From Fuerstiella sp. (lineage in GTDB: Bacteria; Planctomycetota; Planctomycetia; Planctomycetales; Planctomycetaceae): 64,000 nt of DNA. The notes under the pieces were generated by a model that had not been told where the DNA came from, ran no database searches, and was given only the letters and a program-made list of their open reading frames with translations. Below, one piece after another: positions 19,154 to 46,429 of this stretch (the stretch's first letter is position 1; each line of letters opens with the position of its first letter). A program made the position numbers and the translations under genes. The DNA is taken from NCBI GenBank assembly GCA_022843805.1, contig JALHMY010000014.1:1-64000 (forward strand), written 5' to 3'.

Positions 19154-19345
19154 GGCGACCGGCAGTTGATGGGCTGGGAGGGCGAAGCTGGGAGGGCGAA
19201 GCTCCTGCTGAGCCGAAGATGGGATGGGAGGGCGAAGCTCCTGCTGAGCCGAAGATGGGCTGGGAGCCGAGAAAATCTCGGCTCGGCAGGAGCCTCGCCC
19301 TCCCGGTAAAGCGAAAAGCTCGGCAGGAGCCTCGCCCTCCCGGTA
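19151..19345. repeat. GAGGGCGAAGCTCCTG array, copy 1
   Basis: Four forward half-units of GGAGGGCGAAGCTCCTGCTG type are followed by two inverted ones (CGGCAGGAGCCTCGCCCTCC), so the block can form hairpins. Its left end, TAAGGCGACCGGCA, overlaps the stop codon of the RPG-repeat gene and resembles the end sequence TAAGGCGAGCGGCA of the other two arrays (31803-32195 and 42504-42675). A matching right end is not seen here, so this copy is shortened or degenerate. Confidence 0.8.
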
Positions 19346-26164: not shown

Positions 26165-26314
26165 TTCGGCAGAAAGATTTCTTTGGCAGAAAAATTTGGA
26201 CGGAATGGAAGAACGGTGAGACCAGGCATTGTCAGATGAACTCTCCGCCCGTCCCTCGCTCTCTTGCGATTCATTTTTCTGTCCTGAAATTTTTCTGCCC
26301 AATCCTTGTTCCGG
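26165..26314. repeat. 150-bp dispersed element, copy 1
   Basis: The unit recurs at 26763-26912 with about six differences in 150 bases and no length change. Each end carries a pair of GGCAGAAAAAT-type motifs, and those on the right are inverted relative to those on the left, so the element can fold back on itself. It has no open frame of note. Its form matches small non-autonomous elements built from paired REP-like ends. Confidence 0.88.
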
Positions 26315-26762: not shown

Positions 26763-26912
26763 TTCGGCAGAAAAACTTCTTTGGCAGAAAAATTTGGACG
26801 GAATGGAAGAACGGTGAGACCAGGCATTGTCAGATGAACTCTCCGCCCGTCCCTCGCTCTTTTGCGATTCATTTTTCTGCCCTGAAATTTTTCTGCCCAA
26901 TCCATGTTCCGG
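26763..26912. repeat. 150-bp dispersed element, copy 2
   Basis: Near-identical to 26165-26314, in the same orientation, about 450 bases downstream. The high identity implies recent copying or recombination. Confidence 0.88.
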
Positions 26913-27220: not shown

Positions 27221-29221
27221 GTGCGCGGAGAACGGCCTGTGCCGATGTCTGGGACTGATTCTGTCGGCTTGTTTGAGTCCACTCAAAACCTCGCCCCACA
27301 TTTTCGCAGGGCAATTCTTATACGGGCCGTTGAAGAACGGCTGCTGGAACTGTTTTCTCAGCGTCGCCTCAATGGGACAGTGCATACCTGCCTGGGGCAG
27401 GAATGGACAGGCATTGCCGTCGCCAGCGTTCTGAAGGACGGCGACTATGTCGTCAGCAACCATCGATGTCACGGACATTTCCTGGCCCGAACCGACAATG
27501 TTGAAGGCCTGATCGCCGAGCTGATGGGCCGTCGATCGGGCGTGTGTGGTGGCCGAGGCGGCAGTCAGCATCTCTGCCAGTCCGGTTTCTTCAGCAACGG
27601 CATTCAGGGAGGAATTATGCCGGTCGCAGCCGGCATGGCACTGGCTCAGAAGCTGAACAAAACAACGAACCTGACCGTGGTCTTTATTGGTGATGGAACG
27701 CTCGGCGAAGGTGCGGTCTATGAAACGCTCAACTGCGCCGCAAAGTGGCAGTTGCCACTCTTTGTCGTTCTGGAAAATAATCGATACTCACAGAGTACCC
27801 GACAGCAGGAGACTCTGGCCGGTGACATCTGTGACCGAGCGAAGGCGTTTGGAATTTCCACATTCACCGCCGAGACATGGAATCCGGAGCGGCTGCTCAT
27901 CACGGTCGCCGATTGTCGCAATCAAATGATTGAAAGTGGTGGCCCGGTCTTCCTGCAGATCGATACAGATCGTCTCGCAGCGCATTCGAAAGGGGACGAC
28001 GATCGATCTGCGGATGAACTTGGTTCGTATCGAGACCGCGATCCAATCCATCGTTTTGTAAAACGCTTTCCGGAACTGGCAGGACAGTTCCGTGACGAAG
28101 CCCAGGTCCGCATTGATCGAGCCGTGAGTCTGGCGGAAGCAGCACTACCAGCATGCCTCGACTCAGACACAATGACGACTATTAAAGCATCTCGGGACAT
28201 TCAATGGAGAACGGAGTCTCGGGCAACGACAGATCGTTGTGTCGATCGTATTCGTTTCGCACTCGGACATGCACTGGAAACAGATGAACACGTCGTTCTT
28301 CTGGGCGAAGATATTGAATCTCCTTATGGAGGTGCGTTTAAGGTCACACAGGGACTGAGTACACGTTTTCCGGGTCGCGTTCGCAACTGTCCGATCAGTG
28401 AATCGCTGATTGTCGGGCTTGGAAACGGGCTGGCTCTGGCGGGATTTCGTCCGGTCTGCGAAATCATGTTCGGTGATTTCCTTTTGCTGGCTGCCGATCA
28501 GATTATTAATCATGCGTGCAAATTCCGTTTCATGTATAATAACCAGGTTCAGGTGCCGCTAATTGTTCGAACTCCCATGGGAGGTCGTCGAGGCTATGGC
28601 CCGACTCACAGCCAGTCCCTTGAGAAGCATTTTCTCGGTGTGCCCAATCTTCTGGTTGTCGCCATTAATCATCGGTTTGATCCGGCAGTCATCTACCAGA
28701 CTCTGCTGACATCTGATCCGGGGCCGACGCTGGTGATCGAGAACAAAGTGCTGTATGGCCAGCGAATGCCGTCAGCCATGCCGGACGGTTTTGTATGTGA
28801 GTACTCTGACGAAACACTTCCATCGGTGCGAATACGTCCGGAAGGGGTACCGGATATCACAATCGTCTGTTACGGAGAAATGCTGCGCGAAGTTGAAGAG
28901 GCGATTCTGGTTCTGTTTGATGAGCATGAGCTCATCTGCGAAGTCATTTGCCCGACTCAGTTATCCCCGCTGAATGTGTCGGCCATCGAATCGTCGTGTC
29001 GACAGTCGAAGCGGCTGCTGGTTGTGGAAGAAGGAACTGACACGTTCGGCTTCGGGTCTGAAGTTGCAGCAACCGTTGCCGAACGAATCCCGGGCATTTC
29101 AATTCGACGCCTGGCAGCTCCTGCGATTCCTGTTCCTGCCTGCGCGACACTTGAGCAGGAACTGCTGCCGAATCGCCGATCAATCGTTCAGGCCACGGTG
29201 GAGTTGTCACACCATGTCTGA
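27221..29221 (+). CDS. Fused E1-alpha/E1-beta 2-oxoacid dehydrogenase (thiamine diphosphate enzyme)
   Basis: One 666-residue chain carries both halves of a PDH/BCKDH/acetoin-dehydrogenase-type E1. Residues ~25-330 are the alpha part: RAVEERLLELFSQRR, then NGTVHTCLGQEWTGIAVASV. The thiamine diphosphate motif follows, with GDG at 157-159 and the closing NN at 186-187 (VLENNRYSQS). Residues ~340-660 are the beta part: LLGEDIESPYGGAFKVTQGL, RVRNCPISESLIVGLGNGLA, PMGGRRGYGPTHSQSLEKHF, then the C-terminal transketolase domain. E1 decarboxylates a 2-oxoacid and passes the acyl group to the lipoyl arm of E2, which is the next gene (8-bp overlap). No E3 gene is adjacent. Fusion of the halves occurs in some specialised-metabolism enzymes. 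GTG 27221 has GAGG upstream; ATG 27245 is an alternative. The block leads directly towards a PKS. Confidence 0.9.
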   Translation: MRGERPVPMSGTDSVGLFESTQNLAPHFRRAILIRAVEERLLELFSQRRLNGTVHTCLGQEWTGIAVASVLKDGDYVVSNHRCHGHFLARTDNVEGLIAELMGRRSGVCGGRGGSQHLCQSGFFSNGIQGGIMPVAAGMALAQKLNKTTNLTVVFIGDGTLGEGAVYETLNCAAKWQLPLFVVLENNRYSQSTRQQETLAGDICDRAKAFGISTFTAETWNPERLLITVADCRNQMIESGGPVFLQIDTDRLAAHSKGDDDRSADELGSYRDRDPIHRFVKRFPELAGQFRDEAQVRIDRAVSLAEAALPACLDSDTMTTIKASRDIQWRTESRATTDRCVDRIRFALGHALETDEHVVLLGEDIESPYGGAFKVTQGLSTRFPGRVRNCPISESLIVGLGNGLALAGFRPVCEIMFGDFLLLAADQIINHACKFRFMYNNQVQVPLIVRTPMGGRRGYGPTHSQSLEKHFLGVPNLLVVAINHRFDPAVIYQTLLTSDPGPTLVIENKVLYGQRMPSAMPDGFVCEYSDETLPSVRIRPEGVPDITIVCYGEMLREVEEAILVLFDEHELICEVICPTQLSPLNVSAIESSCRQSKRLLVVEEGTDTFGFGSEVAATVAERIPGISIRRLAAPAIPVPACATLEQELLPNRRSIVQATVELSHHV

Positions 29222-30599
29222 AACAATTCCCGTACGCATTCTGCAGGAAACGGTTAACGACAACGAAGTGCTCATTCAGCAATGGCGAGTCCGCGACGGA
29301 GAAATTGTTGCAGCCGGACAGATTCTGGCGGAGGTCGAAACCAGCAAGTCGGTCATTGAGATCACCAGCCCGGCAGCGGGAACAGTCGAATTGAAAGTGC
29401 AGCAGGGACGTGAAGCTGCGGTCGGAGAAATCCTTTGCCTGATTCGCACCGAGTCACTCGGCCCCGCCATCGCATCAAGTGTGGACAAGTTACCACACCA
29501 CTATGACTGCGGGACGACCAGTGGTATCGATTCTGCCGCTCTGTCCGGTCAGTCGACACGTTTCAGTCATCGTGCGCTGACCCGACTGAAGGAGCTTGGG
29601 AAGAGCCCGACAGATTTCGAGGGTCGCGGCCTTATCCGACTCAGGGACATCGAGTCTTCAGTGCACGGTGATAATCCGGAACAAGTCCGAAGCGTGGCCG
29701 CAGATTCGATTTCGGTATGTCGGAACGAAAGAACACACTCGACTTCGATCCCTGACCTGGCAGCAGCAGCGAACTGGAAGAGTGTGAACGGGGTTGAGTT
29801 TGATGCGAGCCAGCTCTCACGTTCAAAGAGACTGGAGACGAGACTGCTGTCCTGGAGTACACATCAGGCGATACGCAGTTCCGTCTCGGTCATTGTCCCA
29901 ACGCACGGACAGAATATTCTTCGTGCCGTCATCCCGGACATCAGTCAGATTGTTTCAGCTCAGATCATTTCGGTCACTGCGAGGCTGCTGCGGGAATTTC
30001 CGGCATTCAATGCCTGTTGTCTGAATGACGAAGTCCGTCATTATCGCGATATCCATATCGGATTTGCCGTCGACGCAGGCCACGGACTTCGAGTTACCGT
30101 GATTCGATCGGCCGACAAACTGAGCCTGGAACAAATTCGTGAAGCTCGGGACGAACTGATCGCCGCGTATCTGAACAACAGGCTTCAGCCCGAGCAGACG
30201 AATGGGGCAACGTTCACGATCTCCGATTTGTCGAACGGGGGTGTGAGCACATTCGATCCGCTGATCTCTGAAGGACAGTCCGCGATTCTGGGAATCGGTT
30301 CCGAATCCGGTGAGACAGGCGTTCGCAACGGCTATCCGCTGATTCTGTCATTCGATCACAGGTTAGCGGAAGGAAGAGCGGCTGCGATGTTTCTGAATCG
30401 CATTCGGGAACAGATGGTATCATTGGAACGGGAAATTCTGCAGCAGTGCTCCAGCCTTTCAGCACGACTGGAGCCCAAATGCAGTCGGTGCGGCATGACT
30501 TCGTCCACAGCAGCACAGCGTCAGCATTTCCTGACGGAAACCCTTGCGGCGGACTGGTCAAAACGCCTCGTGTGTACCATCTGTCTGCAGGGGCGGTAG
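29214..30599 (+). CDS. E2 dihydrolipoyl acyltransferase with C-terminal zinc ribbon
   Basis: The 461-residue product is the acyltransferase partner of the preceding E1. ATG 29214 overlaps the E1 stop (ATGTCTGA). Residues 1-80 are a lipoyl domain with the lipoate-accepting Lys 45 in VETSKSVIEI. Residues ~115-147 (RFSHRALTRLKELGKSPTDF) are the peripheral-subunit-binding domain that holds E1 or E3. The catalytic domain (~210-410) ends with LSFDHRLAEG, with His 382. Canonical E2 enzymes have H-x-x-x-D-G; here the Asp is Glu. After the domain, a tail holds CSRC (423, 426) and CTIC (454, 457), a four-Cys zinc ribbon unusual for E2. The changes suggest a specialised acceptor, perhaps a carrier protein rather than CoA. 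Confidence 0.88.
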   Translation: MSETIPVRILQETVNDNEVLIQQWRVRDGEIVAAGQILAEVETSKSVIEITSPAAGTVELKVQQGREAAVGEILCLIRTESLGPAIASSVDKLPHHYDCGTTSGIDSAALSGQSTRFSHRALTRLKELGKSPTDFEGRGLIRLRDIESSVHGDNPEQVRSVAADSISVCRNERTHSTSIPDLAAAANWKSVNGVEFDASQLSRSKRLETRLLSWSTHQAIRSSVSVIVPTHGQNILRAVIPDISQIVSAQIISVTARLLREFPAFNACCLNDEVRHYRDIHIGFAVDAGHGLRVTVIRSADKLSLEQIREARDELIAAYLNNRLQPEQTNGATFTISDLSNGGVSTFDPLISEGQSAILGIGSESGETGVRNGYPLILSFDHRLAEGRAAAMFLNRIREQMVSLEREILQQCSSLSARLEPKCSRCGMTSSTAAQRQHFLTETLAADWSKRLVCTICLQGR

Positions 30600-30622
30600 T
30601 CAGCGAGACAGCCAAACATCAG

Positions 30623-30681
30623 GCGACTGGGAACATGAAGCGACTGGGAACATGAAGCGACTGGGAACATGAAGCGACTGG
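30623..30681 (+). promoter_or_regulatory. Triplicated start region forming two six-codon minigenes
   Basis: A 17-bp unit (GCGACTGGGAACATGAA) occurs three times plus a partial fourth just before the hexapeptide-ACP gene. Each unit contains an ATG. The first two (30635 and 30652) read Met-Lys-Arg-Leu-Gly-Thr-stop, and each stop overlaps the next ATG (ATGA). The third ATG (30669) opens the real gene, which also begins Met-Lys-Arg-Leu. The units could act as coupled leader minigenes or be a neutral slippage expansion of the start site. Confidence 0.75.
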
Positions 30682-31706
30682 CACTCTCCGTTTTCGATTT
30701 CGCAATGGGCATGCTCTTTCTGCATACCATTCTGGTAATCTCAGTGATCACCTACTACTGGACGCTGAAGACTCTGATTGCCGCAGACAATGGAACGTTT
30801 CCCGGGAGCGTGCCCGTCTGGCTGATGCTGGCACCGCTGATTTATGTCTCCTGGCTGATCTGGTTTCTGGCACATTGCTGTCTGGAGCTGTACGTCCATC
30901 GATTCTGGCTGCGATTTCGCAAGTACCCCCGGATGAACCCACGTGACGGATTTCATCATTATTTGCTCTTCTATGCGGCCATTTTTCTTTATCTTCGAAT
31001 GCGATTTCTGTATTCACTGCCGATTGTGAACGCATTGATTACGCTGCCGATTGTGCGGCACCTTGTCTTCCGTGCGTATGCAATTGGTGATCATGTCTCG
31101 CACCAAAGTCTGGTCTGCGGAATGCTGTCAGATCCGGATCTAACGCATATTGGAGAAGGCGCGATCATCGGTGCAGGCGCTTCCGTGATTGCACACAGCA
31201 TCACGGTGAATTCGGATGGCTCACGCGTACTGGTGACAGTTCCCATCTCAATTGGTGCCCGATCGGTTGTGGGCGGAGATGCGGCCGTTCATTTTGGCGT
31301 CGTCATTGGTGTCGATGCCGTGATTGAACCAGCCAGTTATGTTCCGGCAATGACTCACATAGGCGACGGCGAAGTCTGGGGCGGTAATCCCGCTCGTTTT
31401 TTAAGGAAGCGGACTGAGCCTGGCCCCACTCCTGAAGAAGTCGATGGCGGCCAGCAGGCACTGTTGTCTCCGGATAACGAGATGGTGCTGCGATCCCTGG
31501 TGGCCTCCTCGCTTCACCGACCTGCTGATTCGATCACCGAGGATTTCTCGCGTCGCGACTCGGCGGCATGGGACTCACTTGCTCAGCTCAGCATGGCATT
31601 GAGTCTGCAGCAGAACTTCGGAATCCAGCTGTCGAGTCAGGAGAGTTTTCAGCTGTTCTCCATGTCTGACCTGCGAGACGTGCTGCGTCGTTTCGGATTT
31701 TCATGA
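30669..31706 (+). CDS. Membrane hexapeptide acyltransferase with C-terminal acyl-carrier domain
   Basis: The 345-residue product has an N-terminal membrane part: hydrophobic segments at ~8-35 (FAMGMLFLHTILVISVITYY), ~50-70 (VWLMLAPLIYVSWLIWFLAH) and ~95-125. Residues ~145-240 form left-handed beta-helix turns of the hexapeptide acyltransferase type, with IGEGAIIGAGASVIAHS, ISIGARSVVGGDAAV and VWGGNPARFLRK at the end. Residues ~265-345 form a phosphopantetheine carrier domain: SAAWDSLAQLSMALSLQQNF, whose Ser 303 is the attachment site. The fusion suggests that an acyl group carried on the protein is moved to a membrane-side acceptor, or that the carrier receives the E2 product. It lies between the E1/E2 pair and the PKS on the same strand. 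The start is the third of three repeated ATGs. Confidence 0.8.
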   Translation: MKRLALSVFDFAMGMLFLHTILVISVITYYWTLKTLIAADNGTFPGSVPVWLMLAPLIYVSWLIWFLAHCCLELYVHRFWLRFRKYPRMNPRDGFHHYLLFYAAIFLYLRMRFLYSLPIVNALITLPIVRHLVFRAYAIGDHVSHQSLVCGMLSDPDLTHIGEGAIIGAGASVIAHSITVNSDGSRVLVTVPISIGARSVVGGDAAVHFGVVIGVDAVIEPASYVPAMTHIGDGEVWGGNPARFLRKRTEPGPTPEEVDGGQQALLSPDNEMVLRSLVASSLHRPADSITEDFSRRDSAAWDSLAQLSMALSLQQNFGIQLSSQESFQLFSMSDLRDVLRRFGFS

Positions 31707-32393
31707 CCGAGCCGGGATGAATAATGGACGAATGTGCAATTCCCAAGTTTGCACAGCATCAAAGTTGGAGTTGGTCCGAGAGAGCGCCGTGTTCGCACGC
31801 GGTAAGGCGAGCGGCAAGATTGTATTTACCGGGCGGGCGAGGCTTCTGCCGAGCCGAGTTTTTCTTTACCGGGAGGGCGAGGCTCCTGCCGAGCCGAGTT
31901 TTTCTTTGCCGGGAGGGCGAGGCTCCTGCCGAGCCGAGTTTTTCTCGCTTCAGCAGTAGCTTCGCCCTCCCATGCCATCTGCGGCTCATCAGGAGCTTCG
32001 CCCTCCCATGCCATCTGCGGCTCATCAGGAGCTTCGCCCTCCCATGCCATCTGCGGCTCATCAGGAGCTTCGCCCTCCCATGCCATCTGCGGCTCAGCAG
32101 GAGCTTCGCCCTCCCCTCCCATCTGCGGCTCAGCAGGAACTTCGCCCTCCCATCTGCCGCGATGATTGGTATGTTTTCAACTGCCGCTCGCCTAACATCA
32201 AATCCGAGCCAGTTTGTTAAGTAAAACTGAAATGCCTTGTGTGGTCTCCTGTACGGAAGTAGATTGGCCGTCCCACAGGTGCAGAATGACGGGCCTTCAA
32301 TGCCGCCTCAGCAGCTGTCGGAACAGTGATCCGTGCGATGCGAAACGCACGATGTCTCGGCGGGACTTCTGGAATTGAAAGCAAACGGCAAGC
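31707..32393. other. Intergenic region with inverted-repeat-bounded array
   Basis: Nearly 690 bases between the hexapeptide-ACP gene and the PKS. More than half is the array at 31803-32195. The remaining ~200 bases before the PKS probably contain its own promoter; I see no convincing boxes and no gene. Confidence 0.5.
31803..32195. repeat. GAGGGCGAGGCTCCTG array with terminal inverted repeats, copy 2
   Basis: The left end TAAGGCGAGCGGCA and right end TGCCGCTCGCCTAA are inverted repeats with one mismatch. Inside, three forward units (GGCGAGGCTCCTGCCGAGCC type) are followed by about six inverted units (GGAGCTTCGCCCTCCCATGC type, ~35 bp period). The right flank ATTGGTATGTTTTCAACTGC recurs, slightly changed, at the end of the copy at 42504-42675. 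The ordered ends mark a discrete element, not random low complexity. Its translations produce repetitive false frames on both strands. Confidence 0.88.
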
Positions 32394-35300
32394 ATGCAAC
32401 CCATCGCAATTACCGGAATCGGCTGTCGGTTTCCGGGCGGCGGACTTGATCCGGAATCGTTTTGGAAAATGCTGGCTCTGGGTGTTGATGCCGTTACGGA
32501 AGTTCCGGCGTCGCGATGGCCCATCAGTGTCTATTTTGATCCTGAAAAGGGTCGAACTGGCAAGACGTATTCGCGATGGGGCGCTTTTCTTCCGGAGATT
32601 GACCGCTTTGACCCCGGTTTCTTTGGAATTCCTCGTTCGGAAGCCGATGCAATGGATCCTCAGCAGCGACTGCTTCTGGAAACTGCATGGGAATCCATGG
32701 AAGACGCAGGCTACGTTCCGAATCCTCGTGGTGATCGGACCGGGGTTTTTGTTGGGATCAGTACGCGCGACTACGAACTCATTCAGGGATCATGCTGTGA
32801 GCTGAATGACGTCAGCCCGTTTTCCGCCACGGGCCTGGCCAGCAGCATCGCTTCGAACCGCCTTTCCTACTGCTTCAACTTCACCGGTCCAAGTCTGAGT
32901 ATCGACACAGCCTGTTCTTCATCGCTGATGGCCGTTCATCTGGCGTGTCAGAGTCTTTGGAATGAGGAATGTGACACGGCGATTGCTGCAGGCGTCAACT
33001 GCCTGATCAGCCCCAGCAACTTTTTGGCGTTTTCCAGTATGGGGCTGTTATCTCCCGATGGCCGCTGCCGCAGCTTCGATGCTCGCGGGAACGGCTTCGT
33101 GCGTGGCGAGGGTGCCGGCTCAATGTTGCTGGAACCTCTGGAAGCCGCTTTGGCTCGCGGAGCACGCGTTTATGCGGTGATTGTCGGAACTGGAGCAAAT
33201 CAGGACGGACAAACTCCCGGCATCGCCTTTCCCAGTCGCGATTCGCAGGCAGCGCTGCTTCGTAAAGTGAGTCACGACGCTGGCGTTGCTCCACACGATC
33301 TCGTGTATATTGAAGCGCATGGAACAGGCACTGCTGCGGGCGATCCTGTGGAAACCTCGGCTCTGGGTGAAGTTTTTGGGGCCGGACGTCTTCCAGGACG
33401 TGAGCTGCTGATTGGATCAGTAAAGTCCAATATCGGACATCTGGAATCCGGAGCAGGAATTGCCGGCATCATCAAATGTGCCCTGTGTCTGAAACATGGG
33501 GCCGTACCTAAGAATCTGCATTTCGAAGTCCCCAATCCGGCGATCGACTTTGAAGGATGGCGGCTACGAGTTCCTACTCAGATGGAACGGTTTTCCGACC
33601 ATACGGCAAACGACAATGGCTGGTATGCGGGCGTTAATTCATTCGGATTCGGGGGAAGCAACGCGTTCGTGCTCCTGCGCAGCCAGCCGCAAATACAGAA
33701 GCACGGGGCTCCGAATGCACCGGCCGGCTCTTCTTCACAGCTGCAGACCTCGCAGTCCGCAGCTGTGCAAAAGGCCGAGGTCGTCAGGCCTCGGGTTCTG
33801 ACAATTTCGACGCGAGATGCGGAAGTTCTGCCGCTGGCAGCAAAAAGATTCGCGGAGTTCCTTGAGGCATCAGGCGACGGACACACATGGACTCTGGACG
33901 ATGTTGTGCATGCGGCGGCCGTGCAGAGACCGCATCATCGGTTTCGCATGTCCATTGTGGGGCGTTCTGAGCAGGAGCTTACGGAACGTCTTCTGGCGTT
34001 TTCCAGCGGTGAAGCGTCGATCGGCGTGGTCTCAGGAGAAGCTGTCACAGGTACAGGCATTGTATTCGTGTTCAGTGGCCAGGGCGCTCAATGGTATGCG
34101 ATGGGACGACGTCTCTATGAAACAGAGCCGGTCTTTCGGGAGACACTCGAGCGTTGTCACAGGGCACTGTCTGAGTGTGGGAACTGGTCGCTGCTGGACG
34201 AGTTTCTGGCCGACGAGGCTTCGTCGAGAATGATGGACACAGCGATCGCCCAGCCGTCCATCTGTGCGATCCAGATTGCTCTTGCAGCTCAGTGGGACTT
34301 CTGGGGGATACGACCTGCTGCGGTCACAGGGCACAGCGTCGGCGAAGTCGCTGCAGCCTGGTGCGCAGGGGTGTTTACTCTGGAAGAAGCCATGCGGATC
34401 ATCTTCCATCGAGGTGACACGATGTCCCGGGCTGTCGGAGACTGTGGAATGCTGGCGGCATCGCTGAGCGCCGATGACGCCCGTCAGTTCATTGAAGATT
34501 ATGATGGAGCCATCTGCGTCGGCGCCATCAACAGTCCGCAGTCCGTGACCCTCTCGGGAGAACAGGAGGCTCTGAACAGAGCTGCAACTGTACTCACAGA
34601 GAGAGGAATCTGGAACAAAGCCGTTCCGGTCAATTACGCATTTCATAGTCGGCAGATGGATCCTGTCAAAGAGCCCCTGCGAATTGCGCTTGAGGGCCTC
34701 AATCCGCGACCGGCCCAAATCCCGCTGTATTCCACCGTGACCGGACAACGCATTGAAGGTACTGAACTCGGTGCCGAATACTGGTGGCGGAATGTTCGAG
34801 AGACTGTCAGATTCGCACCCGCAATGGAGTCACTGGCGCGAGACGGATACACAACGTATGTGGAAGTTGCAGCACATCCGGTACTGTCGACGTCGATTAA
34901 GCAGTCTCTGGAAGGGCTTGAAGGACAGGACGAAATTGTCGTGCTGCCATCACTGCGTCGGCAGGATGACGATCACCTGATCATGCTGCAGTCGCTCGGA
35001 ACATTGCATTGCCTTGGATATTCGGTCCGGTGGGATCATGTCACGCCGCGAGTTTCGGATCGTTTTGTTCGCCTTCCGACATATCCGTGGAAGTACGAAC
35101 GGTTCTGGAATGAATCGCCCGACTGGAACCTGACTCGCAGCCGGGAACAGCGACATCCGCTGCTGATGCGACGGATTGCAGGGTCTGTGCCGACATGGCT
35201 GTGCCTGATCAATTTCCGTCTGCTTCCCTGGTTAAAGGATCATGCTCTTCAGGGTCGTCCGCTGTTTCCGGCGGCCGGTTATCTGGAACTGGCACTGGCC

Positions 35301-38300
35301 GCGGCAACCGAGGTTTATCCTGGTCAGTTCTGCCAGCTTCAGGACGTGGAGCTGGAACGTGCCATGTTTCTGACGGAAGGCGGACGCGGAACCGATGCAC
35401 ATGTGCGTGTGGATCCTTCCGATCATCAGTTTTCAATCCTGAAGGGAAATGACGCGGACGGCTGGGAGCGAAATGCCCGCGGTTTCGTTAAAACTCGCAG
35501 GAGTTCCGGAGCAGCGCAGTTTGTCGAACTGGATGAGATTCGCAGACGCTGTCGAACGGAACTGAATGCAGATGCGTTTTACGCGAAAACCCGACAATGC
35601 AGTTTTCAGTACGGTCCGGCATTTCAGGGAATTCAGCATGTCTGGCGCCGCGACGGCGAAGCCCTGGCGAGGATCACTCAGCACCCCGCACTGCAGACAG
35701 AAACGGCCGGGTACTTTATGCATCCAGCTCTGCTGGATGCCTGTATTCAGCTGGCATTTGTCGTCATGAAGGAAGACGATCCAGAGGCACCATCGGGCAT
35801 GTTTCTGCCGAACAGCGTACATCGGCTGCAGTCGTTTTCACCTCTGCCAAATCAGTTTCTCGCACATGCCGAACTGGTCAGGCAGGGGCGGTCGACGCTG
35901 GTTGTCAATATTCGCGCGGTTGCGGAAGACGGGCAGCTTCTGGCGAGGCTGGATGGTGTTCGCTTTCGACCAATGGAAGGATCAGATGACGAGAATTTCT
36001 CGAACTGGTTCTATCAGTCAAACTGGATTAAGAAACCCCGGCCTGAGGCGGCCCGAAATAATTTGAGCAATCTCCCGATGGCTGCTCTTCCGTCAGTTTC
36101 ACAGCTGGCCATCGAACTGCAGGCCGGGGCTGTGATGAGACGTCAGCGCATGCAGTTGCCGCGGCTGGTACAGGAAAGTCGGCGGGAAATTCGCCAGCTC
36201 CAGGCCGTCTGCGCGCTCGATGCTCTGCAGGAACTGGGATGGTATCCCAGCATGGGCGACGAGTTCTCCACGGACCTGCTTTCGCAGCAGCTGGGAATTG
36301 CGGATGAGAGTCAGCTTATTCTGGATCGCTGTCTGCAGGCAATGCGTGAACAGAACTGGCTGAACTATGAGTCTTCTGCCGGAAACTGGCAGGTTGTCGC
36401 GCTCGCGGACCCCGGACTGTCTGTTTCGGGACTCTGGCGGGCACTGGCCGATCGCTACCCTTCACTGCTGAGTGAGTTGATACTGCTGAAGCACTGGAGC
36501 GAGAATCTCGGACGGCGGCTAACCGGCGAGCCGGATACAGCTCGTTCCGAGGAGTTAATTCGGCTGCACGAGCAGGCGAGATTCCATGCGGTCCACTGGA
36601 CACCTTCCCATCTTGTGATTCGGCAGGCCGTTGCCACGATTTCCGCCGGACTGCCTGAAGGCCGGCGTCTTCGAATTCTGGAGGTGGGATCCGGCAATAG
36701 TGGCCTGTCATCGCACGTGACTTCTCTGCTGACTCCGGAACTGGCGGATTATATCCTGACGGACCATCGTTCAGATCTTTCCTCCGGCATTGAAGACCGC
36801 ATTCGCCAGTACGGATTCGGTGACTACCGTGTTCTCGACCTGAATGCAGATCCCGAAGCTCAGGGATTCGAATGCGGTCAGTTTGATGTCGTGATCGGTC
36901 AGGATCCGTTTTTCAGTGCAGATACCATCGGAATCGTACTGGAGCGAACAGCAAAGCTTCTTGCTCCAGGCGGGATGCTGATCTTTTCGTCATGGGATCC
37001 CGACGCATGGATGGCCGAGGTTGACGATTTGATCACAGATTCTGGCGATCGTTCTCAGCCGACTGGCATAGGTCGACCGTCGCGATCCGGCTGGCAGCAG
37101 GCGCTTCAGGATTCAGGTTTTGCCGAGGTTGAATGCGTCTCTGACATTGAAGTCGCCGAGGAGATCGGTCGAACGGTCTATCTGGCTCAGAAAAGCGGAG
37201 TACCGTCTTCCGGGCAAACGTTTGGAGAACCGTCGGTTGAACAGGACGTACGGATTCCGCCGAACGCCGACGTTCGTCGATGGCTGATTCTGGAAGACAA
37301 TCCGGGGGTAGGAAACCGGGTTGCCGATCTGCTGCAAAAGGCGGGCCATACCGTTTCCGTCGCGAACGTTGCAGGTGACTTTGAGCAACTGGAATCACTC
37401 GTATCGCCTGAAGTTCAGGGGATTATTCATTTATGGAGCCTGAATGCTCCTGCCATGACCGACGATCTCTCGATCGAATCGCTAAAACAGTCACAGCGGA
37501 CAGGCGCTCAGTCGATGCTGCGGCTGGTGCAGGCTATTGCCAGCCGGGCGGAAGGCGGTAAAAGCCCTCGCATCTGGCTGGTGACTCGCGCTGCTCAGCC
37601 GATTGGACTCCAGGGTTCCGCCGTTTCCCTCGCTCAGACGCCCCTGCTGGGTCTGGGACGAGTTTTGATGAACGAACAGCCTGATCTGAAATGCCGAATG
37701 GTGGACCTGGCCCCAGGTGCGACGATCGATGACGACGTGACAGGGCTGCTGGGAGAACTGTTCACCGAGGATCGTGACGAGCAGGTCGCGTTACGGGGTC
37801 CGCTGAGGTACGTGGAACGGGTCGAAAGAATGTCCGGCCTGGATTCACCGGATCCCGGTGATCGCGGGATGCCGGATCAGTATCCATGCCAGCTGAAGAT
37901 CGGTCGACCGGGAATGATCGATCAGCTTCGACTGCGGCCGATTGAACGACGTGAGCCCGGGCCGGATGAGGTTGAGGTGGCCGTTTGCGCGGCGGGACTG
38001 AATTTTCGCGACGTAATGAAATGCCTGGGTGTCTATCCGGGTGATGCGCCCGATGCGAATTCCCTCGGTGACGAGTTCAGCGGAGTCGTTCTTCGCATCG
38101 GCAGCAATGTACACGAACATCAGGTCGGCGATCGCGTTTTTGGCGTCTGTCTCGGCGCCATGGCAACGCATATCACGGTGCACTCCAGCGTGTGCCTGCC
38201 ATTGCCGGCTGAAATGACCTTTGAAGAGGCAGCCACGATCCCCGTGGTGTATCTGACAGCATACCATGCCCTGCATCAGCTGGCGCATGCGACCGCCGGA

Positions 38301-40016
38301 GAGCGTATTCTGATTCATTCGGCCGCAGGCGGAGTGGGACTTGCGGCCGTGCGACTGGCCCTGAAAGCCGGGCTCGAGGTCTGCGGCACTGCGGGCTCGC
38401 CAATGAAACGACAGCTGTTGCGAAGCCTCGGCGTCTCTCACGTGCTGAACTCCCGGACGCTTGAGTTTGCCGATGAAATTCTCGCTCTGACAAACAATGA
38501 AGGCATCGATATCGTATTGAATTCGCTGGCAGGCGAAGCGATTCCCCGGAGCCTTGAACTGCTGAGACTGCACGGGCGATTCCTGGAAATCGGCAAGCGG
38601 GATATCTACAGCGGAAGCACAATCAGTCTGAAACCTTTCCAGAACAGCCTGTCGTGGCACGCCATCGATATGGCAAGAGCTCTGGTTCCGCCTTATGCTG
38701 GTCCGCTGCTGAACGACATCCTCGGACTGATAAAATCCCAAACAGTTGTTCCGCTCCCCGCTTTGTCGTTTCCGTTAGGCGAAGCAGCTCGGGCCTTCCG
38801 CCACATGGCTCAGGGAAAACACATCGGTAAAATTGTCCTGAGTGTTGATCAGTCGCCCGTTTCGCGGCGAAACGCTTACAGAGCCTCTCGTGCCAGTTAC
38901 CGCAGTGACGCAACCTGGCTGATTACGGGCGGCTTACGCGGACTGGGGCTGTTTCTGGCCGAACATCTGGCCAGCCGCGGTGCGAGGCATCTTGTGCTGA
39001 CCAGCCAGAGTGGTCCTGAGTCTGACGAATCGCAGGCTGGGCTGGCACGACTTCAGGCAGCGGGAGTCAGGGTCATGGCACGGAAATCCGATGTCACCAG
39101 CGAACAGGAACTGGCCACACTTCTGGAAGAGATCACTCAGAATCTGCCGCCGCTTGTCGGTGTCATCCATGCTGCCACTGTATATGCCGATGGTCTTTTG
39201 AGGGAAATGGATCAGGCAACCTATGAAAAGCCGATGGGACCGAAGGCCTGGGGCGCGTGGAACCTGCATCAGCAGACACGGCATTGCTCTCTCGAACTGT
39301 TCGTCATGATTTCCTCAGTCAGTGCCGTAATTGGAAACGCAGGCCAGGCGAACTACGTGGCCGCCAACCTGTTTCTTGATCACCTGGCACACTATCGCCG
39401 CAGTCAGGGATTGCCTGCACTGTCCCTGCAGCTTGACCGGATACAGGACGTCGGACATGTGGCCAGAAACGAAGAGCTTGCGAACTACTTCTCACGGCTT
39501 CGCTGGTGGGGTATTAGTCCGGCGCAGGCTGCTGAGGGTCTTGATCGCCTGCTGGAGAATCGGCCTGCGGTGGGGCTGATCAGTTCCTTCAAATGGATGA
39601 AAGGTTCTTCGGGAATTGGAGCCCAGCTGGGGTCTCCGCGATTCGAGCAGCTTGTACGCGACGAGTCGTCGGCAGCGGATGAAGGCAATCTGGAAATTCG
39701 TCGACGACTGGACATGGCAGCACCGGAAGAGAAGGCTGGTATCGTAAAAGATTTTCTGGTGCGTGAAATCGCTGATGTCCTTCGAGTATCAGCACGACGC
39801 CTTTCCCAGACCCGTCCGCTCAAGGAAATCGGTCTGGACTCACTGATGGCTGTGGAACTGATGTCGCGAATTGACTCAAAACTGGGGATGTCTCTGCCAG
39901 TCAGACATCTTTCCGCGGATGCAACCGTATTGACTTTGACCGATGCAGCGCTGTCGCAGATGGGCGTCACGGTAAAACCGAATTCCGAACGAAAGGGTGA
40001 AGTTCGTGACCAGTGA
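32394..40016 (+). CDS. Reducing type I polyketide synthase, KS-AT-DH-MT-ER-KR-ACP
   Basis: The 2540-residue single module extends an acyl chain with malonyl-type units and can fully reduce the beta-carbon. KS (1-430) has the triad Cys 174 (DTACSSS), His 309 (HGTGT) and His 349 (NIGH). AT (~545-850) has Ser 648 in GHSVGE and AFH at 749-751, the malonyl-type pattern. DH (~930-1190) has His 950 (HALQGRPLFP) and Asp 1115 (LLDACIQ). A methyltransferase-like part follows (EVGSG at 1430). ER (~1810-2130) has HSAAGGVG at 1975. KR has GGLRGLG at 2179 with Ser 2308 and Tyr 2321. The ACP Ser is 2483 (GLDSLMAVEL). No thioesterase or release domain is present. The order is that of highly reducing iterative PKSs. 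Start ATG 32394 begins directly at the KS motif; the ribosome-binding site is weak. Confidence 0.95.
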   Translation: MQPIAITGIGCRFPGGGLDPESFWKMLALGVDAVTEVPASRWPISVYFDPEKGRTGKTYSRWGAFLPEIDRFDPGFFGIPRSEADAMDPQQRLLLETAWESMEDAGYVPNPRGDRTGVFVGISTRDYELIQGSCCELNDVSPFSATGLASSIASNRLSYCFNFTGPSLSIDTACSSSLMAVHLACQSLWNEECDTAIAAGVNCLISPSNFLAFSSMGLLSPDGRCRSFDARGNGFVRGEGAGSMLLEPLEAALARGARVYAVIVGTGANQDGQTPGIAFPSRDSQAALLRKVSHDAGVAPHDLVYIEAHGTGTAAGDPVETSALGEVFGAGRLPGRELLIGSVKSNIGHLESGAGIAGIIKCALCLKHGAVPKNLHFEVPNPAIDFEGWRLRVPTQMERFSDHTANDNGWYAGVNSFGFGGSNAFVLLRSQPQIQKHGAPNAPAGSSSQLQTSQSAAVQKAEVVRPRVLTISTRDAEVLPLAAKRFAEFLEASGDGHTWTLDDVVHAAAVQRPHHRFRMSIVGRSEQELTERLLAFSSGEASIGVVSGEAVTGTGIVFVFSGQGAQWYAMGRRLYETEPVFRETLERCHRALSECGNWSLLDEFLADEASSRMMDTAIAQPSICAIQIALAAQWDFWGIRPAAVTGHSVGEVAAAWCAGVFTLEEAMRIIFHRGDTMSRAVGDCGMLAASLSADDARQFIEDYDGAICVGAINSPQSVTLSGEQEALNRAATVLTERGIWNKAVPVNYAFHSRQMDPVKEPLRIALEGLNPRPAQIPLYSTVTGQRIEGTELGAEYWWRNVRETVRFAPAMESLARDGYTTYVEVAAHPVLSTSIKQSLEGLEGQDEIVVLPSLRRQDDDHLIMLQSLGTLHCLGYSVRWDHVTPRVSDRFVRLPTYPWKYERFWNESPDWNLTRSREQRHPLLMRRIAGSVPTWLCLINFRLLPWLKDHALQGRPLFPAAGYLELALAAATEVYPGQFCQLQDVELERAMFLTEGGRGTDAHVRVDPSDHQFSILKGNDADGWERNARGFVKTRRSSGAAQFVELDEIRRRCRTELNADAFYAKTRQCSFQYGPAFQGIQHVWRRDGEALARITQHPALQTETAGYFMHPALLDACIQLAFVVMKEDDPEAPSGMFLPNSVHRLQSFSPLPNQFLAHAELVRQGRSTLVVNIRAVAEDGQLLARLDGVRFRPMEGSDDENFSNWFYQSNWIKKPRPEAARNNLSNLPMAALPSVSQLAIELQAGAVMRRQRMQLPRLVQESRREIRQLQAVCALDALQELGWYPSMGDEFSTDLLSQQLGIADESQLILDRCLQAMREQNWLNYESSAGNWQVVALADPGLSVSGLWRALADRYPSLLSELILLKHWSENLGRRLTGEPDTARSEELIRLHEQARFHAVHWTPSHLVIRQAVATISAGLPEGRRLRILEVGSGNSGLSSHVTSLLTPELADYILTDHRSDLSSGIEDRIRQYGFGDYRVLDLNADPEAQGFECGQFDVVIGQDPFFSADTIGIVLERTAKLLAPGGMLIFSSWDPDAWMAEVDDLITDSGDRSQPTGIGRPSRSGWQQALQDSGFAEVECVSDIEVAEEIGRTVYLAQKSGVPSSGQTFGEPSVEQDVRIPPNADVRRWLILEDNPGVGNRVADLLQKAGHTVSVANVAGDFEQLESLVSPEVQGIIHLWSLNAPAMTDDLSIESLKQSQRTGAQSMLRLVQAIASRAEGGKSPRIWLVTRAAQPIGLQGSAVSLAQTPLLGLGRVLMNEQPDLKCRMVDLAPGATIDDDVTGLLGELFTEDRDEQVALRGPLRYVERVERMSGLDSPDPGDRGMPDQYPCQLKIGRPGMIDQLRLRPIERREPGPDEVEVAVCAAGLNFRDVMKCLGVYPGDAPDANSLGDEFSGVVLRIGSNVHEHQVGDRVFGVCLGAMATHITVHSSVCLPLPAEMTFEEAATIPVVYLTAYHALHQLAHATAGERILIHSAAGGVGLAAVRLALKAGLEVCGTAGSPMKRQLLRSLGVSHVLNSRTLEFADEILALTNNEGIDIVLNSLAGEAIPRSLELLRLHGRFLEIGKRDIYSGSTISLKPFQNSLSWHAIDMARALVPPYAGPLLNDILGLIKSQTVVPLPALSFPLGEAARAFRHMAQGKHIGKIVLSVDQSPVSRRNAYRASRASYRSDATWLITGGLRGLGLFLAEHLASRGARHLVLTSQSGPESDESQAGLARLQAAGVRVMARKSDVTSEQELATLLEEITQNLPPLVGVIHAATVYADGLLREMDQATYEKPMGPKAWGAWNLHQQTRHCSLELFVMISSVSAVIGNAGQANYVAANLFLDHLAHYRRSQGLPALSLQLDRIQDVGHVARNEELANYFSRLRWWGISPAQAAEGLDRLLENRPAVGLISSFKWMKGSSGIGAQLGSPRFEQLVRDESSAADEGNLEIRRRLDMAAPEEKAGIVKDFLVREIADVLRVSARRLSQTRPLKEIGLDSLMAVELMSRIDSKLGMSLPVRHLSADATVLTLTDAALSQMGVTVKPNSERKGEVRDQ

Positions 40017-41493
40017 TGAAGTTCCTATGGACGCCGCATCGGTCCGCTCGCTCCTGGGTTTTCGACGGCCCGTTCCGCTGACTCTGGCAGAAATGTGTCG
40101 AACTCTGCGCGTGCTGTTCTTTCCTGGCACCCGACTAACCCCGCGGCTGGAGGTCTTTGGAGAAAAACTGCGAGCCGCCTTCCGGAAACTTGGCGTGCGC
40201 GAAGTACTGCTGCAGGACGCTCTGAATTCCTCCGGCCATCTCGTGGAAGGAATTGTGCCGCTGTTTCTGGGCGAACCGCAGCTGGATGTTGCAATGCTGG
40301 AACAGCTTCCGCTTCAGAATTTGTATTCCAGCCAGATGGTCGGGATATTTGACCGCAGAAGTCCGGTTGACGAAAACAGCGGGCTGCAGGAACGGCTGGA
40401 TTCCATCGTCGAGGTACTGACAGGACATCTTGTTACGCTGTGTCTGTTTGTCACGGACGAACACTGGTGCATGTGTACAATGAACGGGGCCGTTGCAAAT
40501 TACAGCAACGGCGATTCGATTTGCGATGACGTCGAACATGCTCTGATTCCAAAGCTTGCGGCACGAGTGATGCCGCCGCGGGTCTCAGACATCACTTGTC
40601 GATATGAAGGTCTCGATGCCCTGAGTCCCGAGTATTGCGGAGTTGTGTCCGATTTTTCCGACAGCCTTCGTAACTGGGCCGAGACCGGTCTGATTGCAGC
40701 TCATACATCTCTCAGTCGACTGCAGTTTCGCAGTGCACTTCACCGCATGCTCGTGACCTCATATCTCGACGATCGCAGCGGGATGAGCTACGGCTTTTTG
40801 TCATGGCAGCTGCCTGCAGCCTGTGCACCGGCAATACCGATTGAAGACTTCGACGGAGCATGGGGAAGCAGCCCGATTGCAGAACGAAGTCAGTGCAAAT
40901 GGGTGAGAGTTCAGGTCGCCGGGCGGGAATTTGCCGTGCCGGTTCCCGAGGTTTCGGTTCTTTGTACTCGATCGGGATGCCGCAAAGACCAGATGGATCC
41001 GGCGCGAGATCTGGTGCGGCTGACGTTGTCGAATGGCAGGGTGCTGATGGATACTCCGCAGGGTATCACTCGGGCGGAGGATTGCCGCCCATCGTACGAC
41101 ACGTTCACGATACTCGGCATTGCTATGGGAAATTGTCTGGCGGCGAGCATTCTGAATCTTCTTCAGCCCGATTCCCGATTTTCCCGTACCCTGTCGACCG
41201 CGGGCCTTTCGCTTTCCCACTGGCACGGTTCGCTGTCTGCGAACAGCGTACCGCCCGGTTATATTCAGCATGGAACCGAGAATCCTGGCGTCTGCTGCTC
41301 AACTCCCCAGTCGGCAATCTACGCGCTGACCGGAAAGCTAACGGCTCTCAGCGAAGCCCTGAAGTCCGGTACGGAATTCCTCGGCGACGTACACATCGAA
41401 CCCCATCATGGCACCAATCTCTGCGGTGTCCTGTCACTGACGGAAAGCTCCCGTGTTGTGCAGAGCAACCTGATCCGGAATGGCCGGCATTGA
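40006..41493 (+). CDS. Unknown protein translationally coupled to the PKS
   Basis: The ~495-residue product starts inside the last codons of the PKS. GTG 40006 has GAAAGG seven bases upstream; GTG 39997 is an in-frame alternative. The overlap implies that it is made together with the PKS. It has no signal peptide, membrane segment or family motif that I can recognise. Visible points are many Cys residues, LCLFVTDEHWCMCTMNGAVA, a proline-rich SWQLPAACAPAIPIEDFDGA segment near 270, and a C-terminal HIEPHHGTNLCGVLSLT. A role in chain release or transfer is a guess from position, since the PKS lacks a thioesterase; no nucleophile motif such as G-x-S-x-G is seen. The downstream gene is separated by 356 bases. 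Confidence 0.75.
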   Translation: MTSDEVPMDAASVRSLLGFRRPVPLTLAEMCRTLRVLFFPGTRLTPRLEVFGEKLRAAFRKLGVREVLLQDALNSSGHLVEGIVPLFLGEPQLDVAMLEQLPLQNLYSSQMVGIFDRRSPVDENSGLQERLDSIVEVLTGHLVTLCLFVTDEHWCMCTMNGAVANYSNGDSICDDVEHALIPKLAARVMPPRVSDITCRYEGLDALSPEYCGVVSDFSDSLRNWAETGLIAAHTSLSRLQFRSALHRMLVTSYLDDRSGMSYGFLSWQLPAACAPAIPIEDFDGAWGSSPIAERSQCKWVRVQVAGREFAVPVPEVSVLCTRSGCRKDQMDPARDLVRLTLSNGRVLMDTPQGITRAEDCRPSYDTFTILGIAMGNCLAASILNLLQPDSRFSRTLSTAGLSLSHWHGSLSANSVPPGYIQHGTENPGVCCSTPQSAIYALTGKLTALSEALKSGTEFLGDVHIEPHHGTNLCGVLSLTESSRVVQSNLIRNGRH

Positions 41494-42308: not shown

Positions 42309-42718
42309 AGCCTGTATGCCACCCTTCAAAAATCCGGCGACGTTGTCGCAGCCGATACGCCCAGGTCGAGTTATGGCTTCCGGCTGCTCGCTCGTCACCA
42401 GTGTCCGGGAGTTTACAGCATCAATTAATTGTACAGACAATCATTCGTCAATATGACTGACTTTGCCTTCAGGGCTGCATGTGGCAAAGACCATGAAACT
42501 GATTTAGGCGAGCGGCAAAATCATATTCACCGGGAGGGCGAGGCTCCTGCCGAGCCTTTCTCGGCTCCCGTTTTCGGCTCAGCAGGAGCTTCGCCCTCCC
42601 ATCTTCGGCTCAGCAGGAGCTTCGCCCTCCCAACTGCCGCGCTGATTGGTATGTCTTTAACTGCCGCTCGCCTTAGAGCCCCCTATCCGTCATGCTGACC
42701 GGATGTTGAAAGAATCGG
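42309..42718. other. Intergenic region with array copy 3
   Basis: About 410 bases between the DUF3052-like gene and the convergent phosphoesterase gene. The array element at 42504-42675 occupies the right half; I see nothing in the left ~190 bases. Confidence 0.5.
42504..42675. repeat. GAGGGCGAGGCTCCTG array with terminal inverted repeats, copy 3
   Basis: The ends are TTAGGCGAGCGGCA at the left and TGCCGCTCGCCTTA at the right, the same inverted ends as the copy at 31803-32195. One forward unit and two inverted units lie inside. The right flank ATTGGTATGTCTTTAACTGC matches that of copy 2. This is the shortest complete copy in the window and best defines the element. Confidence 0.88.
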
Positions 42719-45061: not shown

Positions 45062-45087
45062 AAAACAGGAGTTACATATCCTGTTTT
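45062..45087 (+). promoter_or_regulatory. Candidate operator for the hybrid-cluster protein gene
   Basis: AAAACAGGA and TCCTGTTTT form a perfect inverted repeat separated by eight bases, 56 bases before the TTG start. Spacing and position suit a dimeric regulator. It is not the TTGTGA..TCACAA site of CRP/FNR-type HcpR, nor a recognisable NsrR site, so the regulator is unknown. Confidence 0.5.
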
Positions 45088-45142
45088 GCTGTGGAATTTC
45101 GTTTTGTGCCGTAAGAATCGGATATTCAGAGGAGAAGGCCAC

Positions 45143-46429
45143 TTGTTTTGCAATCAATGTGAACAGACTCAAAATGGAACTGGCTGCACGGACGTCGGAG
45201 TCTGCGGAAAGGACGAAGATGTTCAGTCTTTGCAGGAAATTCTTCTGTACGGACTCAAAGGGATGGCCGCCTATGCGAATCATGCTCGCCGACTGGGGAA
45301 AGTCGATGACAACGTGAGTGCCTTCATTGAAGAAGGTCTTTTTTCCACAATGACGAACGTCAACTTTGACATTCCCACGCTTCTGGAACTGGTTCTGGAA
45401 TGTGGTCGTCAGAATGTTCGCGTGATGCAGATGCTTGATGAGGGGCACTGTGAAAAGTTTGGTACGCCGGTACCAACAACCGTTTATGAAGGAACAAAGG
45501 CCGGACCAGGTATTCTTGTCACAGGGCACGACCTGCTGGACCTGTCGGACCTGCTGGAACAGTCGGCAGGACTGGGCGTCAACGTTTACACGCATGGCGA
45601 GATGCTGCCGGCTCACAGTTATCCGAAGCTGAAGGCTCATGCTCATCTGGCCGGTCACTATGGCGGTCCGTGGCAGAATCAGTACTGGGAGTTTCCCTCC
45701 TTCACCGGCCCGATCGTCGCCACAACAAACTGCATTCTGATCCCGCCGGATTCCTACAAAGAGCGTCTGTTTACCACACGCGTCACCGCCGTTCCCGGAG
45801 GCCGTCGGCTTAAGACCAATGACTTCTCGGACGTCATTAAAGCAGCAAAGCAGCTTGCTCCATTGCCTGAGCGAAAAGTGCGGGAGTCGACCATCGGATT
45901 CCATCACAGTGTGATTCTTGGAATTGCAGACAAGGTCGTTCAGGCGGTCAAATCCGGTGAAATCAAACGGTTCTACCTGATTGGCGGATGCGATGGTGCT
46001 GAGATGGGGCGCAACTACTACAGCAAACTCGCCCAACAGACCCCGGATGAATCCGTGATTCTCACGCTGGGCTGTGGCAAATATCGAATTCGAAATCACG
46101 AGTACGGAACGGTCGCCGGCCTTCCCCGACTGCTTGACATGGGGCAGTGCAACGACGCATACGGAGCCGTGCAGGTTGCACTGGGACTTGCAAAAGCGTT
46201 CGATTGCAGTGTCAACGATCTGCCATTGTCGATTGTTCTTTCATGGTTTGAGCAGAAGGCGGTGGCCGTCCTTCTGAGTCTGCTGGCTCTGGGTGTGAAG
46301 GGAATACGTCTTGGCCCGGTTGCCCCGGCTTTTGTTACTCCCAACGTATTCAGAATCCTTCAGGACACCTTCGATCTGAAGCTGACTGAATCTGAACCAC
46401 CGGCGGAACTTGTTCAGCTCAGCGTCTGA
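45143..46429 (+). CDS. hcp: Hybrid-cluster protein, short class III-like form
   Basis: This Fe-S protein reduces NO or hydroxylamine-type species. I place the start at TTG 45143, where GGAG lies eight bases upstream and the product begins (M)FCNQCEQTQNGTGCTDVGVC, the N-terminal C-x2-C-x8-C-x5-C cluster site. Hybrid-cluster ligands appear in TGHDLLDLSDLLEQ, YTHGEMLPAHSYP, TTNCI, IGGCDGAEMGRNYYSKLA and TLGCGKYR. The 428-residue product is about 110 shorter than class I enzymes. Directly after LQEILLYGLKG comes AAYANHARRLG, so one three-helix bundle of the N-terminal region is missing, as in class III Hcp of archaea and some thermophiles. The protoglobin gene follows 74 bp later, which supports a nitrosative-stress role. 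Confidence 0.92.
   Translation: MFCNQCEQTQNGTGCTDVGVCGKDEDVQSLQEILLYGLKGMAAYANHARRLGKVDDNVSAFIEEGLFSTMTNVNFDIPTLLELVLECGRQNVRVMQMLDEGHCEKFGTPVPTTVYEGTKAGPGILVTGHDLLDLSDLLEQSAGLGVNVYTHGEMLPAHSYPKLKAHAHLAGHYGGPWQNQYWEFPSFTGPIVATTNCILIPPDSYKERLFTTRVTAVPGGRRLKTNDFSDVIKAAKQLAPLPERKVRESTIGFHHSVILGIADKVVQAVKSGEIKRFYLIGGCDGAEMGRNYYSKLAQQTPDESVILTLGCGKYRIRNHEYGTVAGLPRLLDMGQCNDAYGAVQVALGLAKAFDCSVNDLPLSIVLSWFEQKAVAVLLSLLALGVKGIRLGPVAPAFVTPNVFRILQDTFDLKLTESEPPAELVQLSV

Follow-up and report, generated by a model that had tools for sequence, protein, structure and literature searches.

We analyzed a 64,000-nucleotide stretch from the planctomycete Fuerstiella sp. (assembly GCA_022843805.1, contig JALHMY010000014.1, bases 1-64000), referred to below as the window. 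It is part of contig C14 in a genome of 9.2 Mb and 172 contigs. An earlier note on this DNA had described a block of five plus-strand genes, and we recovered all five at the same coordinates: an E1/E2 pair of the 2-oxoacid dehydrogenase kind, a hexapeptide acyltransferase that has a carrier domain at its C-terminus, a reducing type I polyketide synthase (PKS), and a coupled gene whose product we call the orphan protein. Our results suggest that the E1/E2 pair probably generates a short hydroxyacyl group and loads it onto the carrier of the acyltransferase. The features of the block are as follows:

27221-29221, plus strand: E1, a fused alpha-beta thiamine diphosphate (ThDP) enzyme of 666 amino acids (aa), GTG start (open reading frame, ORF; Pfam E1_dh, Transket_pyr, Transketolase_C)
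29214-30599, plus strand: E2, lipoyl domain and 2-oxoacid dehydrogenase acyltransferase core, 461 aa, ATG at 29214 (ORF; Pfam)
29346-29348, plus strand: expected lipoyl lysine, K45 of E2 (ETSK; alignment, position counted by hand)
30474-30599, plus strand: Cys-rich C-terminal tail of E2, CxxC...CxxC (alignment, borders counted by hand)
30669-31706, plus strand: 345-aa hexapeptide acyltransferase whose C-terminus forms a carrier domain (weak hexapeptide acetyltransferase matches; PP-binding)
31825-32153, no strand: tandem repeats in the spacer that separates the acyltransferase gene from the PKS gene (repeat scan)
32394-40016, plus strand: reducing type I PKS with ketosynthase (KS), acyltransferase (AT), dehydratase (DH), methyltransferase (MT), enoylreductase (ER), ketoreductase (KR), and acyl carrier protein (ACP) domains, 2540 aa (Pfam, motifs)
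39997-41493, plus strand: 498-aa orphan protein, its gene overlapping that of the PKS (ORF; no Pfam or NCBIfam match)

The three Pfam domains of E1 all lie on one chain. Matches to any E1 were found in 164 of 170 genomes of the same order, but close ones in only three, the window's own included. The closest were in G057 (62% identity) and G072 (58%), and the next stood at 36%. Three genomes of the same genus lacked a close E1, one of them being only 66% complete. A sample of 392 genomes from the phylum added three E1s of at least 49% identity (G333, 56%; G440, 50%; G173, 49%). Across 743 plasmid records, the top match was RenH from the renieramycin cluster (46.6% identity over 97%), whose plasmid accounts for four of the records, followed by two Streptomyces records, S. 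cattleyicolor and Nonomuraea (41-44%). The renH gene overlaps that of the E2 RenI, and we take both proteins to function in making renieramycin.

In a tree of 44 E1s, the window and RenH fell into a ten-member clade with a Shimodaira-Hasegawa-like approximate likelihood ratio (SH-aLRT) support of 100. The other members were G057, G072 (a partial row), G333, G440, G173, NBC_01136, S. cattleyicolor, and Nonomuraea. The remaining 34 E1s lay outside, and a more careful tree of 35 E1s returned the same split with support of 100/100. The genome's own second fused E1, on contig C4, also fell outside the clade. Judged from these sequences, the window E1 is not a housekeeping E1, and the earlier claim that the pair groups with natural-product pairs, apart from housekeeping pyruvate dehydrogenase (PDH) and branched-chain 2-oxoacid dehydrogenase (BCKDH), held in both trees. 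We also looked for the outcome named beforehand as fatal to that proposal, an E1 among housekeeping enzymes with a lipoamide dehydrogenase (E3) gene nearby, and the result left the proposal standing.

Residues typical of the clade are K469, H470, and G473, just past the THSQ histidine, and G162 within the ThDP motif; a role for them in handling a phosphorylated donor is no more than a guess. The HS loop and THSQ histidine of 2-oxoacid E1s are retained. Scores fell below the NCBIfam PDH cut-offs for both the alpha half (204.5 of 393.9 bits) and the beta half (178.9 of 321 bits), as they did for RenH, though fusion by itself may depress such scores. Two more distant groups of E1s were set aside. 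In one, at 33-36% identity (G167, G100, and relatives), the E1 halves are encoded separately and look acetoin-dehydrogenase-like to us; the other, at ~40% (12 stretches, L080-L091), has no E2 of the window type nearby. Within the latter, a lipoyl protein of a different kind adjoins the E1 of G273 (by eye). A Chloroflexi contig (L043, 1-1884) holds a piece of an E1 alpha half (59%) in frame with a part that resembles a nucleotide-sugar enzyme by eye, a possible chimera; with no beta half found, it was excluded from tree building.

Carrier genes recurred beside the E1/E2 pairs of this clade. Pfam recognized an adjoining carrier in 6 of the 10 members: the window, G072, G333, NBC_01136, S. cattleyicolor, and Nonomuraea. 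G072, of the same family but another genus, has E1, E2, and the hexapeptide/carrier protein in the same order, and its assembled E2 contains a single in-frame stop. Further downstream, the opposite strand carries a GNAT-domain gene and one that resembles an O-antigen ligase by eye. E1 and E2 of G333 (L077, 10185-13468) are followed by a carrier-sulfotransferase-thioesterase frame that the E2 frame enters by fusion or overlap, and we take the sulfotransferase-thioesterase pair to resemble the ends of curacin-type PKSs. NBC_01136 encodes an ACP, E1alpha, E1beta, and E2 in a row (89, 311, 334, and 359 aa) within a region annotated for nonribosomal peptide synthetase (NRPS) and PKS. The order in S. 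cattleyicolor is PKS, ketoacyl-ACP synthase III (KASIII), ACP, E1alpha, E1beta, and E2, with another PKS 2.7 kb on (PKSs by eye), and in Nonomuraea it is a reductase-like gene (by eye), ACP, E1alpha, E1beta, and E2. In G057, E1 and E2 are followed by a protein ending in a 4'-phosphopantetheinyl transferase (PPTase) and, by eye, a disrupted hexapeptide gene; the same 20 kb hold genes for a bacterial sugar transferase, a ketosynthase, an AMP-ligase, and a short-chain dehydrogenase/reductase.

With the Ren plasmid included, 7 of the 10 clade stretches gave hits to a carrier model of our own, and none of 26 control stretches flanking other E1s did (388,755 bases in all, representing 24 of the tree's 34 outgroup rows plus two others). 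Nine of the ten sequences used to build this model came from clade loci, so its clade matches arise partly by construction, which is not true of the Pfam matches. Because a recognized carrier accompanies six of the ten pairs, loading of the acyltransferase's own carrier is the best reading. The earlier note had raised this possibility, and the clade, the carriers, and the control all speak for it.

The candidate acceptor begins with a region that looks hydrophobic by eye, followed by a hexapeptide domain and the C-terminal carrier. Its PP-binding domain scored 22.0 bits against a cut-off of 20.8 when the C-terminal end was scanned alone and was missed in the whole-protein scan. The protein occurs in 7 of the 170 order genomes (E 1e-10 or better); at 1e-20, only its own genome matched among the 392 phylum genomes. 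All seven aligned sequences keep the carrier serine (WDSL) and one histidine of the hexapeptide domain. The protein follows E1/E2 in the window and G072, is cut by a contig end in G083, and is fused to FkbH in G105, G110, G056, and G147, where all four FkbH parts exceed the curated cut-off. FkbH makes a three-carbon glyceryl-carrier from a glycolytic intermediate. Two kinds of enzyme that make short hydroxyacyl groups thus seem to feed one and the same acceptor, and this apparent swap is the strongest hint that E1/E2 would load the window's own carrier. FkbH itself was not listed for the block's proteins in Pfam or NCBIfam (for the PKS, NCBIfam listed 25 of 128 families). Among the FkbH-fused loci (L110-L113), G105 has a nearby gene for a condensation/WS-DGAT-like acyltransferase, and G056 has a similar one by eye.

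The E2 gene overlaps the E1 gene by 8 nt, and its product matched Biotin_lipoyl and 2-oxoacid_dh in Pfam, the catalytic part lying at 29961-30419. The lipoyl motif reads ETSK in all eight aligned E2s of the clade and E[TG]DK in the three other full-length E2s of the genome, on contigs C4, C87, and C147 (fragments lie on C10 and C106). A stretch resembling a subunit-binding domain was seen by eye at residues 116-148, with no Pfam match there. The CxxC...CxxC tail is common to the E2s of the window, G057, and G072 (loci L044 and L046 for the latter two) and was not seen in the other eight aligned rows, among them a shortened G333 row. Housekeeping E2s carry the canonical active-site motif DHRxxDG, in which N for D also occurs. 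The window E2, with DHRLAEG, does not match this form, and G057 of the same clade has DHRIGDG.

No E3 gene lies inside the block, and two that exceed the cut-off are found on other contigs of the genome. The window also encodes a weaker, lipoamide-dehydrogenase-like flavoprotein on the minus strand (ORF 10969-12483, match 11050-12381; 366 bits vs. a cut-off of 408.8). The earlier note had taken the lack of an adjacent E3 as a sign that the acyl group forms without net oxidation, an argument that proved weak. Even when the donor is a ketose, passing the ThDP-bound unit on to lipoamide is an oxidation that leaves the lipoyl arm in need of re-oxidation, and the two genomic E3 genes could be shared.

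Pfam placed the PKS domains in the order KS, AT, DH, MT, ER, KR, and ACP, with no thioesterase and no loading module. Motifs were present for KS, AT, DH, ER, KR, and ACP; the methyltransferase pattern was unmatched, though LEVGSGNSG occupies that site. No NRPS domain was found by Pfam within the block, which we read as a difference in acceptor because a PKS setting also exists in S. cattleyicolor. Near-full-length relatives of the PKS are widespread, the top-ranked being from Deinococcus sp. KNUC1210 (36.3% over 98%), and the annotated genes of three such neighborhoods included no E1/E2. Viral contigs gave no match. The orphan protein matched nothing in Pfam or NCBIfam at 0.001 and reached only E 2.1 in the PDB, and its single-sequence AlphaFold model (mean confidence score, pLDDT, of 33) was unusable. 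It occurs in 1 of the 170 order genomes, namely its own. Its one remote relative, on a Nostoc plasmid (22% over 75%, E 2e-13), begins with a TubC docking domain, shares the motifs SYGF, PSYD, HxHG, and EPxHGTN, and sits behind two PKS genes (by eye). Because of this setting, the orphan is most likely a partner of the PKS. A two-row profile matched 9 of the 392 phylum genomes; the eight besides its own hit only the first ~60 positions, the docking domain of the Nostoc row.

The PKS and orphan genes overlap by 20 nt, and 69 bp separate E2 from the acyltransferase. The spacer between the acyltransferase and the PKS (31706-32394) measures 687 bp and holds tandem repeats whose core, GCAGGAGCTTCGCCCTCCC, has 264 exact copies in the genome (reversed control, 0). 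Since the spacer contains so widespread a repeat, a single operon is uncertain, and the block may be transcribed as two units, the trio forming one and the PKS and orphan the other. Related intergenic arrays at 19190-19341 and 42532-42631 mean that arrays flank the PKS and orphan genes. An ORF at 31724-32224 was dismissed as repeat sequence. Upstream of E1, a 150-nt direct repeat occurs in two copies (26165-26314 and 26763-26912, 97% alike). The window further encodes a prismane/CO dehydrogenase family protein (45086-46429) and a DUF1581/DUF1583 protein, a kind typical of planctomycetes. Conserved synteny of all five genes, which the earlier note suggested looking for, was searched for and not found, and a conserved link between E1/E2 and the PKS was not supported either: the G072 trio has no PKS in its 9.8-kb stretch, and of the related genomes only this one showed the PKS. 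PKS settings for the clade's E1/E2 were seen in the window and two actinobacteria.

Taken together, we favor the interpretation, at a probability of roughly 60%, that E1/E2 is a dedicated generator of a short hydroxyacyl group, of the type known from naphthyridinomycin, quinocarcin, scleric acid, and renieramycin, and loads the acyltransferase's carrier. E1 would draw a two-carbon unit onto ThDP from a ketose phosphate or other 2-keto donor, and the E2 lipoyl arm would accept it as an acyl thioester, by analogy probably glycolyl. The E2 core would then hand the acyl group to the phosphopantetheine arm of the hexapeptide acyltransferase's own carrier domain, and a shared housekeeping E3 would re-oxidize the lipoyl arm. 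Loading of this carrier by E1/E2 seems to us likely. Next, the hexapeptide domain could acylate a hydroxyl or amine acceptor, a step with about even chances, and the suggestion that this acceptor is the product of the reducing PKS is tentative.

Several observations weigh against this interpretation. The genes and domains, the E1 clade, the recurring neighborhood, and the carrier serine can be read directly from the DNA, whereas no sequence result reveals the substrate. The link to studied enzymes runs through RenH, three actinobacterial cassettes, and gene layout, with NapB, NapD, QncN, and QncL compared by description. The carrier match in the window is weak, and the E2 core match begins only at profile position 64 of 232. 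No recognized carrier adjoins E1/E2 in 4 of the 10 clade members. Carriers of the Ren cluster were found only within RenE, RenF, and RenK; the contig of G440 stops after E1; and the 92 aa preceding the PPTase domain downstream of the G057 E2, carrier-like by eye, match no carrier model. The E2 frame of G173, which was outside the alignment, has ENAK where the clade has ETSK and ends after 146 aa, and no carrier lies in its 19.9-kb stretch. Lastly, deletion of sclQ1-4 left residual scleric acid product (PMC6335953).

The block could also hold two unrelated cassettes, with E1-E2-acyltransferase serving an envelope glycan and the PKS and orphan another pathway. This is a possibility to be taken seriously, if not the one we would expect. 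The pair lies near polysaccharide-type genes in G057 (the sugar transferase) and G072 (the GNAT and O-antigen-ligase-like genes), the orphan's only relative found follows PKS genes at a locus where no E1/E2 was seen, and repeat arrays border the PKS and orphan on both sides, though such arrays are common genome-wide. Still, no glycan genes were recognized among the scanned neighbors, and all five genes share one strand. The shared strand fits a starter route, in which the KS takes the short hydroxyacyl from the loaded carrier, with the hexapeptide domain in a structural or later role. The loader occurs with PKSs in S. cattleyicolor and in the annotated region of NBC_01136, and Pfam shows no loading module on the window PKS. 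However, the repeat-bearing 687 bp separate the two halves, and a hexapeptide domain with a conserved histidine would be superfluous. The G072 trio, with no PKS seen, favors hexapeptide transfer, and the actinobacterial PKS settings leave room for the starter route, which we regard as somewhat unlikely.

If the pair used a 2-oxoacid to load the carrier with a conventional acetyl or branched acyl group, this would agree with the fold and motifs of 2-oxoacid E1s, including the HS loop and THSQ histidine. Placement in the RenH-type clade and residues K469, H470, G473, and G162 point elsewhere, although none of these proves the substrate, and we consider this alternative unlikely. Attachment of a two-carbon branch to a sugar has been proposed for AviB1/AviB2 and Pau11/Pau12, which are PDH-like E1 pairs in biosynthesis (PMC4425429). 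Those are described there as E1 pairs, whereas an E2 and mostly a carrier are present here too. Such a role is very improbable for the window. Least probable of all is a spare housekeeping PDH or BCKDH. Membership in the same superfamily would allow it, but the fused E1 on C4 lies outside the clade, the genome has three other full-length E2s, the block has no E3, and E1 scores below the PDH cut-offs, with the reservation about fusion given above.

A broader and still speculative proposal follows from our favored interpretation: the order may own a carrier-fused hexapeptide acyltransferase with exchangeable loaders, either FkbH (glyceryl) or a Ren/Nap-type E1/E2 (glycolyl), that here glycolylates or starts a reduced polyketide. 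If true, it would define a new class of decoration with short hydroxyacyl groups beyond the tetrahydroisoquinoline antibiotics. Our favored interpretation by itself extends a pathway known from few antibiotic clusters to Planctomycetota, to glycan-like settings, and to a reducing-PKS neighborhood. The apparent exchange of E1/E2 for FkbH on one scaffold would offer a handle on how cells select a loaded short acyl group, and a fused E1 with a separate E2 would be simple parts for producing glycolyl-carrier proteins.

No description of this gene set was found in the accessible portions of one open literature library, PMC12078418 included. In described systems, a two-carbon unit from a ketose phosphate is considered to end as ACP-bound glycolyl (PMC6335953, PMC7570522). 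The scleric acid proteins SclQ1-4 (76, 305, 338, and 386 aa) comprise a carrier, ThDP E1 halves, and a lipoyl E2 encoded together, and SclQ1-4 and QncN/QncL/QncM, which place glycolyl on an ACP, combine the same gene kinds as the window (PMC6335953). The ACP-E1alpha-E1beta-E2 layout of NBC_01136 follows the SclQ1-4 plan. The window differs in that its E1 halves are fused, its carrier is joined to a hexapeptide acyltransferase rather than free-standing as in Scl and Din, its companion is a PKS and not an NRPS, and no PPTase was found among the scanned neighbors; the likeness to Scl and Qnc is drawn from descriptions, not sequences. NapB/NapC/NapD and DinU/DinT/DinS have been proposed to take two carbons off a pentulose phosphate and transfer them to an ACP (PMC7570522). 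NapD/DinS appear to be E1beta plus E2, by our reading of their length (754 aa), an arrangement unlike that of the window, and the KASIII NapE/DinQ has no counterpart among the scanned window proteins. FkbH glyceryl-ACP synthases, though fused in four same-order genomes to the same hexapeptide/carrier protein, use another chemistry and a three-carbon unit. RenH/RenI resemble the window in their fused E1 and neighboring unfused E2, but belong to an NRPS cluster in which no free carrier was found beside the pair. With its E1 halves and E2 side by side, an adjoining carrier, and an E1 within the RenH clade, the window's membership in the Nap/Qnc/Scl/Ren type is supported at the level of sequence and gene layout.

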